A DNA stretch of 64,000 bases from Candidatus Aramenus sp. CH1. Its GTDB lineage: Archaea; Thermoproteota; Thermoprotei_A; Sulfolobales; Sulfolobaceae. The position numbers and the translations under genes are program-made. Below, one piece after another: positions 29,268 to 31,530 of this stretch; positions within the stretch are counted from its first letter, which is position 1; the number at the start of each line of letters is the position of its first letter. The notes under the pieces were generated by a model. It saw only the letters and a list, made by a program, of their open reading frames with translations, ran no database searches and had not been told where the DNA came from. The stretch covers positions 139,501 through 203,500 of the forward strand of contig JALBWU010000007.1 of NCBI GenBank assembly GCA_022678445.1, in the 5' to 3' direction.

Positions 29268-29281
29268 AAAGTATATATACT
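29268..29281 (+). promoter_or_regulatory. Promoter of the serA leader transcript
   Basis: AAAAGTATATATACT is a consensus-like TATA/BRE centred near 29275. The predicted transcription start is near 29300, just before GAGGTAAAAATG. This leaves about 130 nt of 5' leader before serA, very long for this group of archaea, in which most genes here appear leaderless. Confidence 0.65.
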
Positions 29282-29309
29282 AGTAGTTGCACGAATATGT
29301 GAGGTAAAA

Positions 29310-29405
29310 ATGGACACAAAGGGACTAAACCTACATCTCGTAAAGTTAACCACGTTCAAGTTCATTCTGTCCTTTTCGTCAGTTTCCCTTTCATCATCAT
29401 GTTAA
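29310..29405 (+). CDS. Putative serine-codon-rich leader peptide upstream of serA, 31 aa
   Basis: ATG 29310 follows TGTGAGGT by 5 nt, a good match to the 16S anti-Shine-Dalgarno sequence. The 31-codon ORF starts MDTKGLNLHL and ends LSFSSVSLSSSC before TAA at 29403-29405. Seven of the last eleven codons are serine (TCC, TCG, TCA, TCC, TCA, TCA, TCA) and the last is cysteine, whose carbon skeleton comes from serine. The serA start is 28 bp beyond its stop. This is the arrangement of an amino-acid-sensing attenuator peptide: ribosome pausing at Ser codons would report charged tRNA-Ser. Translation and function are unproven; no intrinsic hairpin terminator is obvious, though the tract is rich in U and C. 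Confidence 0.55.
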   Translation: MDTKGLNLHLVKLTTFKFILSFSSVSLSSSC

Positions 29406-29420
29406 ACTAATTCTCGCGTT

Positions 29421-29429
29421 TGAGGTGAT
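29421..29429 (+). promoter_or_regulatory. Perfect Shine-Dalgarno site of serA
   Basis: TGAGGTGAT is fully complementary to the 3' end of Sulfolobus 16S rRNA (ATCACCTCA) and stands 4 nt before ATG 29434. It supports translation from a leadered mRNA, as expected if the leader ORF precedes serA on one transcript. Confidence 0.7.
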
Positions 29430-29433
29430 CTAA

Positions 29434-30411
29434 ATGGCAGAGACCATAAACTCCGTAAAATATAATTCTATAAATAGAGAAAACCTTAGGATCTTGATAA
29501 CAGACCCCATAGACAACTACATGTTAGATACATTGAAGAGCAATGGATTTAACGTCACCTACCTGCCCGACATAAAGAGAGAAGAACTACTGAAAGTTAT
29601 TGAAAACTATCACGTCATAGTGGTCAGGAGCAGAACCAAGGTAGATAAGGAGATCATAGAAAGAGGTAAGAACCTCAAGATAATCGCTAGGGCCGGGATA
29701 GGCCTGGACAACATTGACACTGACGAGGCAGATAAGAGGAACATAAAGGTCGTCTATGCTCCTGGTGCTTCCACCGATTCCGCGGCAGAGCTAACAATTG
29801 GGCTTATGATAGCAGCTGCTAGGAACATGTACACGTCCATGAGCCTGGCCAAATCTGGCATCTTCAAGAAGGTGTCCGGAGTGGAGTTAAGCGGCAAGAC
29901 AATAGGCATCATAGGGTTTGGTAGGATAGGAACAAAGGTAGCCCTAGTAGCTAAGGCAATGGGCATGAACGTTCTTGCCTACGACGTAGTTGACGTGAGG
30001 AAGAGGGCGGAAGAGATAGGAGCTAGGGCAGTAACTTTGGACGAGCTCTTGGCAAACTCCGACGTTATAAGCTTGCACGTCACTGTGGGAAAGGACGCTA
30101 AGCCTATTCTAAATAGGCAAGAGTTCGAGAAGATGAAGAATAACGTAATAATAGTGAACACTAGTAGGGCAGTCGCTATAGATGGACCTGCGTTGCTTGA
30201 ATACGTAAAGAAGGGCAAAGTGTTGGCATATGCTACTGACGTGTTGTGGAATGAGCCTCCTAAGGATGAATGGGAGTGGGAACTGCTAAAGCACGAGAGA
30301 GTAATAGTGACTACTCACATAGGGGCCCAAACTAAGGAAGCCCAGTATAGGGTAGCAGTAATTACGACCCAGAACTTGCTGAACGCCATCAAAGAGATAG
30401 GTGTAAAGTGA
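29434..30411 (+). CDS. serA: D-3-phosphoglycerate dehydrogenase
   Basis: 325 aa, the short form without C-terminal ACT or ASB regulatory domain, so allosteric serine feedback through an ACT domain is absent. First step of the phosphorylated serine pathway. NAD-binding [17 protein letters not shown] near residue 150, the Arg in [10 protein letters not shown], and the catalytic Glu/His ([19 protein letters not shown]) are visible. It ends directly before the aminotransferase gene (no gap). The leader peptide and strong Shine-Dalgarno site upstream suggest control at the mRNA level instead. Confidence 0.94.
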
Positions 30412-31530
30412 ATGCTTCTTATACCGGGCCCCGTTAACGTTCCCAGAAGCGTGGAGTTTGAGGCCACTAGGGTAGTGAACCACAGGTCGGACGCCTTCAG
30501 AGAGGTAGTGTCCCAACTGGAGGGAAAGCTAGCTAAGCTCTTCTCCTCCGATAGGGTAGCGTTGCTGACTGGATCTGGCACGCTAGCGGTAGAGGCAATG
30601 GTCTACTCTTTGCTCAGAAGGGGAGAAAAAGTTGTGGTGCTAACGTATGGTGAGTTCAGCGAGAGGTTGCTGGACTCAGTTAAGCGTAGAGGAGCACAGC
30701 CAGTTGTTTACAGAAAGGCCCCCGGAGAGTCGTTTAACGTAGAAGAAGTAAAGAAGGTGGTAGAGGAGAACAAGGACGCCTCTGCAGTGGCATTGGTCCA
30801 TAACGAGACGAGCACTGGTATAGCGTTTAGGGAATTGAGGAGTGTGGTAAAGGCCATTAAGGATTCGGGGAAGAAGGCGCTGGTGGACTCCGTCTCCGGT
30901 TTCGCTGCCTATGAACTGCTGGTAAACGAGTGGGGAATCGACGCCGTGGCAACCGGTAGTCAAAAGGCCTTGGCGTCCGTGCCAGGTATGGGACTGGTAG
31001 CCCTATCCAAGGAAGGGATATCCAACTTGAGCTCAGTAGACGTTCCAGCATTTCACGACATACAACTCTACTTGAAGTTCCAAGACAAACACGAGACTCC
31101 CTTTACTCCAGCAGTAGGGGTATTCTTTGCGACCCTAAGGGCTGCAGAGCTTCTGGAAAGGGAAGGAATCAAAAACAGGTGGGCAAGACACGAGGCATGT
31201 GCCCGGTATCTCAGGAAGGTAACCACTGAGATTGGCTTCTCCCTTCTTGGTAACGAGTCCAATTTCTCCAACACTGTAGTGGCAGGCGTTCCCCCAATAT
31301 CCCCCAAGTCCTTAATTGCCGAACTGAAGAACAGGGGCATTGAGGTCTCTGGGGGCATGGGAGAATTACGTGAGAAGATAGTCAGAATAGGCATACTGGG
31401 AGTAGTTGACGATAGGGCAATCCAAAAGCTTGTGACCGCGCTCTCTGATATTCTGAAACAAGAGGTAAGTCTAAAGGCGCCTTCCCAGTGCTCTCTGCCG
31501 GACTTCTTAAGGGCTGAAGTTGAATGGTAA
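30412..31530 (+). CDS. Class V aminotransferase, probable phosphoserine or serine-type aminotransferase
   Basis: 372 aa. Fold type I PLP enzyme like alanine-glyoxylate/serine-pyruvate aminotransferases: LIPGPVNVP start, [27 protein letters not shown] and the PLP lysine in [12 protein letters not shown]. It follows serA without a gap. I infer that it makes phosphoserine from 3-phosphohydroxypyruvate, replacing a classical SerC, because no SerC is seen; serine-glyoxylate transfer is the alternative. The last about 20 residues ([15 protein letters not shown]) extend past the usual fold. Confidence 0.85.

Follow-up and report, generated by a model that had tools for sequence, protein, structure and literature searches.

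Leader-peptide attenuation is a classic mode of control in bacteria, and the locus analyzed here raises the question of whether a serine biosynthesis gene of an archaeon could be controlled in a similar manner. In a 64,000-nucleotide stretch of the Candidatus Aramenus sp. CH1 genome (hereafter the window), serA is preceded by a short open reading frame (ORF) rich in Ser codons, for which a first-pass annotation had proposed the role of a Ser-codon leader. The features of the locus are listed in Table 1. The ORF, its TATA box, the Ser-rich end and the final Cys codon were all reproduced from the sequence, as was serA with a Shine-Dalgarno (SD) site and a 28 nt gap between the leader TAA and its start; the SD-like site of the leader lies 4 nt, not five as annotated, before the ATG. 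The Ser codons of the cluster are TCC (two), TCG (one) and TCA (four), and the Cys codon is TGT. The SerA protein gave the Pfam domains 2-Hacid_dh and 2-Hacid_dh_C alone, in agreement with the annotated lack of an ACT domain, and its best NCBIfam match was TIGR01327 PGDH, with a score under the full-length cut-off of that model. The next gene had been taken for the pathway aminotransferase. It does encode a class-V aminotransferase, but no NCBIfam equivalog scored above its cut-off, so that we infer the substrate; the protein is probably the pathway transaminase.

Table 1. Features of the serA leader locus in the window (positions are those of the window).
Feature	Position	Strand	Basis or remark
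TATA-box-like promoter element GTATATATAC of the leader-serA transcript	29271..29280	+	Sequence
SD-like site of the leader ORF, TGTGAGGT	29298..29305	+	Sequence; 4 nt before ATG
Candidate leader peptide ORF, 31 codons	29310..29405	+	Translation MDTKGLNLHLVKLTTFKFILSFSSVSLSSSC, C-terminal end LSFSSVSLSSSC, then stop
Ser/Cys codon cluster, conserved putative sensing part of the leader	29370..29402	+	11 codons: 7 Ser and 1 Cys
AATTCT motif in the leader-serA spacer, 5' of the serA SD	29409..29414	+	Enriched across genera
SD site of serA, TGAGGTGATC	29421..29430	+	Sequence; partly complementary to leader (UCA)n Ser codons
serA, D-3-phosphoglycerate dehydrogenase-like, without ACT domain	29434..30411	+	Pfam PF00389/PF02826
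Class-V aminotransferase	30412..31530	+	PF00266; ATG directly after serA stop

Compared with dinucleotide-shuffled versions of its final 45 nt, the leader in the window was marginal when taken alone (p = 0.048), and single leaders were moderately unusual (p from 0.0015 to 0.24, many below 0.02). The case against chance thus rests on recurrence of the leader in 29 genomes and across genera. Specifically, 260 nt 5' of the oriented serA loci were read in 31 Sulfolobaceae genomes, and an ORF was counted as a leader when it had at least 5 Ser in the last 15 codons and a Cys in the last 12. A serA homologue was present in 31 of 31 genomes, and a Ser-rich short ORF was found at the same place before it in 29 of the 31 (9 of 11 genera). 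This check among relatives had been set beforehand, and its outcome was that the ORF and its Ser cluster are kept while the rest drifts. The homologous leaders are 31-40 aa long, and examples, each followed by a stop codon, are MLRRENFNRLAVELKVENSLIDLFLLVASVSCSSSISSC (G022), MQNPSMLKREFEFTQLLRKLDLIIILFSSFFSSSFSSSC (genus g6), MNTNKFLENFEKLYNYTSYYYDFFFSSSFSSSC (g11) and MQKETRVGSFSQGLFLMVVRKGSTTFRSCSSSSQ (g8). Note that, for L012, L023 and L024, the downstream of two in-frame ATGs was taken as the leader start, as judged from the TATA spacing. Cys was found in the last 12 codons of 29 out of 29 leaders, whereas this residue makes up 0.53% of an S. acidocaldarius-like proteome. In addition, the TATA-like hexamer, among family genomes in which it could be located, almost always stands 34-39 nt 5' of the leader ATG, an SD-like GTGA, TGAGG or TGAGGT stands at the same place before the leader in genera g1, g5, g7 and g9, and the spacing from the leader stop to serA ranges from 18 to 41 nt.

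The Ser cluster is absent in two of the 31 genomes, G003 and G004. The ORF at the usual leader place in G003 (L031) ends in NNFYWSCWQ and a stop, with a single Ser, a single Cys and two Trp in place of the Ser cluster; Cys and Trp also derive from serine. SerA of G004 groups with those of other families in the SerA tree. Genus g11 (L013-L015) has a TATA-like TTTATAAATAAA in the leader-serA spacer, some 30 nt 5' of the serA ATG, and this element could serve as an additional promoter giving serA transcripts without the leader.

How specific such an ORF is to serA was examined in G022, a complete Sulfolobaceae genome scanned in 20-kb stretches for intergenic short ORFs. At least 7 Ser in the last 12 codons were present in 2 of the 759 scored upstream ORFs, one of which was the serA leader, and ranking of 996 candidate intergenic short ORFs gave, besides the serA leader, no residue cluster matching the downstream enzyme. 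Because the serA leader alone fits in this genome-wide scan, amino-acid leaders are not a general strategy in this species. Two other short ORFs on G022:C1 were recorded: an intergenic one that lies 5' of a gene for 240 aa (434491-435213, minus strand) and contains the odd run FSWFGCWFGCWFGGGG, and MNDKSSSYWWIRVYRWRIIKAISYA, which overlaps the start of a LysY/ArgC-like gene (upstream of 600153-601205). When the ending TCNTCATGTTAA was searched elsewhere in the 31 genomes, scattered matches were found in most. Among 80 serA loci scanned in named genomes, the Ser test was passed only by six leader-bearing Sulfolobaceae and one Micrarchaeota genome, the latter being the exception among the 74 loci outside the leader-bearing Sulfolobaceae, in 73 of which no such ORF was seen. 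Nor was a leader of this kind seen at 19 of 19 serA loci of other Sulfolobales families or before the Thermoplasmata serA of the same SerA clade.

The Micrarchaeota exception (L052), in which the gene order is leader, serA and class-V aminotransferase, was used to search 164 genomes of its order. A close SerA was found in five of them, and all five serA loci have a Ser-rich leader ending in Cys, for example MEAGNLSYLSCASISVISGSSSSSGSSASC followed by a stop. Three segments can be distinguished in these loci. R1 consists of the last Ser-Ser-Cys, Ala-Ser-Cys or Pro-Ser-Cys codons of the leader, R2 (GCAUAAAG or GCAUAGAG) lies just 3' of the leader stop, and R3 (CUUUAUGC) holds the serA AUG, with the SD AAGGUG between R2 and R3. 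Fold z-scores for the five loci were -4.5, -4.4, -2.2, -4.8 and -2.9 for R2:R3, and -4.4, -1.8, -2.4, -4.0 and -3.7 for R1:R2. Because R2 is common to both, the two hairpins are mutually exclusive, and R2:R3 is predicted to mask the serA SD and AUG; the region has, as predicted from its sequence, the anatomy of a translational attenuator. R1 and R2 vary in step (CUC with GAG, and UUC with AAAG), and an extra G in R2 of L249 is matched by a C in R3. An automatic alignment of the five loci, which misregisters L249, gave no formal two-sided covariation, so that the case for the hairpins is built on anatomy and energy. An extra hairpin, R0:R1, was rejected as its folding was not above shuffles.

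We then compared a covariance model of this region with 296 genomes of the phylum. It returned the five known loci, one strong new locus, L281, whose Ser-rich leader ends in SSRSSSSSRSSC and a stop, and two marginal matches without a visible leader. At L281:1354-2139 (G278), the Ser leader and an R1:R2 hairpin are followed by an ORF of 188 aa whose visible likeness to SerA is confined to an amino-terminal extension; there the downstream gene seems to have changed while the attenuator was retained. Against Sulfolobaceae, the model matched the leader region of the g6 locus L016 (E = 1e-5) and, weakly, that of G022 (L023, E = 0.03), and shared Ser codons may be the cause of both matches. The SerA tree places the Micrarchaeota leader clade together with Sulfolobaceae and Thermoplasmata (SH-aLRT 99). 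The leader may have had one origin, with loss in Thermoplasmata, or two origins.

Codon-level comparison was informative about which property of the leader is under selection. Within-genus changes in the amino-terminal part, summed over non-independent pairs, numbered 413 at the first, 373 at the second and 434 at the third codon position, indicating no peptide-level constraint there, and the frame of this part stayed open throughout the drift, free of stop codons. Over the final 14 codons, rates were lower and the third position was the most variable (103, 100 and 154 changes), and 50 aligned Ser-to-Ser differences were in the codon alone. The Ser codons are of the TCN as well as the AGC/AGT type and are exchanged between genomes, and Ser content of the cluster is specific to the reading frame of the ORF (on average 6.7 of 12), the other frames being weaker in their residues (His 4.0, Ile 3.0). 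Selection on the leader is on codons rather than on the peptide.

The choice among Ser codons is biased as well. TCA makes up 126 of 240 Ser codons (52%) in the Sulfolobaceae leaders versus 29 of 371 (8%) in serA, and its share is 26% genome-wide in G022 and 12% among the genes of the window; in the Micrarchaeota leaders it accounts for 22 of 61 versus 12% in flanking genes. G022 has four tRNA-Ser genes, with the anticodons GCU, CGA, GGA and UGA. The proposal that all three TCN-reading tRNAs would be probed therefore agrees with the tRNA set of G022, which also includes GCU, but it understates the TCA bias. GGUGA in the serA SD is a possible pairing partner for UCAUC of the leader Ser codons, and synonymous recoding revealed a weak trend toward such masking in most genera; codon permutation gave no trend, that is, the pairing is without positional tuning. 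Masking of the SD or start is clear as a hairpin in Micrarchaeota and weak as pairing in Sulfolobaceae. Given that the pairing trend is weak and that the TCA preference recurs in Micrarchaeota leaders, a tRNA reason for the preference is more likely than pairing with the serA SD.

RNA structure in Sulfolobaceae gave a negative result. Folds of the leader and spacer equaled those of shuffles and were near 0 kcal/mol at 70 °C, and no mutually exclusive structures were found in the family, the window included. The leader-serA region also has no T run above 5, no conserved U-tract and no terminator, and FttA/U-tract termination as originally written is not supported. Comparison with Rfam matched no T-box or other regulatory family. 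AATTCT/ATTCTT, also seen as TAATTCT(T)/TTCTT, was enriched in the spacer (29406-29433 and relatives) against dinucleotide shuffles (familywise p about 0.003), to an extent across genera similar to that of the serA SD.

Taken together, conservation in Sulfolobaceae and recurrence in Micrarchaeota with attenuator-like hairpins bear out the idea of a Ser-codon leader for serine biosynthesis. We consider it highly probable that the ORF encodes a regulatory leader peptide and acts through its codons rather than through its product, and that pausing at its Ser/Cys codons controls the serA-aminotransferase operon. From the features common to Sulfolobaceae and Micrarchaeota, we infer that the leader is translated and that ribosome pausing at these codons would be the signal. 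A shortage of charged tRNA-Ser, chiefly of the UGA isoacceptor that reads TCA, or of charged tRNA-Cys would make ribosomes pause within the Ser/Cys cluster of the leader, which would be the first ORF on the serA-aminotransferase transcript, and the paused ribosome would presumably raise, rather than lower, expression of the adjoining serA. In Micrarchaeota, a pause early in the cluster would leave R1 free to pair with R2, preventing R2:R3 and allowing serA to be translated, and a ribosome that proceeds through R1 to the stop and then leaves would let R2:R3 form and mask the serA start; the direction of this modeled switch would depend on the pause position. For the step after the pause in Sulfolobaceae, we favor control of serA translation, or survival of the message through the parked ribosome, over intrinsic termination. 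We give an even chance to the broader reading that Archaea have tRNA-charging-sensitive attenuation, which in the hot-living Sulfolobaceae would need no RNA hairpin switch but just the position of a paused ribosome (acting by start-site access, polarity or message protection), and which in Micrarchaeota would use a hairpin version of the same serine leader.

Several explanations concern what a paused ribosome would do. Sulfolobus possesses 5'-3' mRNA decay, and a parked ribosome might shield the 5' end of the message from it, stabilizing serA mRNA. This would suit Sulfolobaceae because it requires no hairpin and none was seen there, and the leader is at most about 100 nt away from the predicted 5' end; however, it would leave the Micrarchaeota hairpins unused, and we regard it as doubtful. 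It is similarly unlikely that the paused ribosome blocks or permits FttA/aCPSF1-type termination before serA. The leader end and spacer are pyrimidine-rich, AATTCT/TTCTT is conserved between the stop and the SD, and archaeal polarity was ascribed to FttA in a review (PMC12548453), but the absence of T runs above 5 and of a conserved U-tract does not fit, and polarity alone predicts lower serA expression under starvation. Simple termination-reinitiation coupling is unlikely as the main route, since the spacings reach from 18 to 41 nt and in E. coli and Haloferax such coupling is reported to weaken at distances above about 30 nt (PMC12548453).

Other explanations dispense with tRNA charging. If the Ser/Cys-rich carboxyl end stalled the ribosome chemically, perhaps sensing serine or cysteine directly, the SSxSSSC end kept next to the stop codon in many genera would be accounted for. 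Such nascent-peptide arrest is nevertheless improbable, as ends and Ser positions vary (SSLSCSS, SLSYWS, CSSHQ and CSSSSQ, each before the stop) and the TCA codon is selected besides the residue. An untranslated role of the conserved TC-rich stretch as DNA or RNA, either as a protein site or as an SD-masking repeat, with the ORF incidental, would explain the weak pairing trend between UCAUC and the serA SD in most genera. We find this highly improbable, given that Ser richness is frame-specific, AGY replaces TCN, frames remain open despite drift, the SD of the leader start is retained in several genera, and TCA is also preferred in Micrarchaeota, where the Ser codons do not face the SD. Least of all would we expect a functional microprotein encoded upstream of serA: the short ORF is conserved and has an SD, but its amino-terminal two thirds are unconstrained, and their drift disfavors this explanation.

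The regulatory leader that we prefer resembles the bacterial trp, his, thr, leu and ilv attenuators in having a short ORF between the promoter and the first gene with clustered codons for the product, in the conservation of this cluster while the remainder drifts, and, in Micrarchaeota, in mutually exclusive hairpins near the leader stop. It differs from them in being archaeal, in its serine and cysteine codons, and in lacking a terminator hairpin or U-tract; Sulfolobaceae are without any hairpin, and the alternative hairpin in Micrarchaeota would mask the SD and AUG. In the latter respect, it is like ermC with its leader ermCL, where the 5' arm of the masking hairpin also lies just after the leader stop, although the proposed signal here is uncharged tRNA-Ser/Cys and not a drug, and clustered codons would take the place of the drug-dependent arrest motif. 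T-box riboswitches likewise place amino-acid genes under control of tRNA charging, but the sensor here would be a translated ORF, and Rfam gave no T-box match. Unlike SecM/MifM-like arrest peptides, Ser positions and last residues are not fixed but vary between genera.

The first-pass annotation knew of no described leader-peptide attenuation in Archaea. Our search of the open-access literature, with subscription papers outside its scope, likewise turned up no leader-peptide attenuator from Archaea that was backed by comparison or experiment: one tool paper mentions archaea just in passing (PMC10219788), and the main text of a post-transcriptional atlas of S. acidocaldarius has no mention of leaders, attenuation or serine (PMC12817955). 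If confirmed, the present finding would mean that ribosome position governs biosynthetic genes in Archaea, and would make archaeal transcription-translation coupling testable in the genetically tractable Sulfolobales. It would also pose the question of how attenuation operates at 75-80 °C without stable hairpins.
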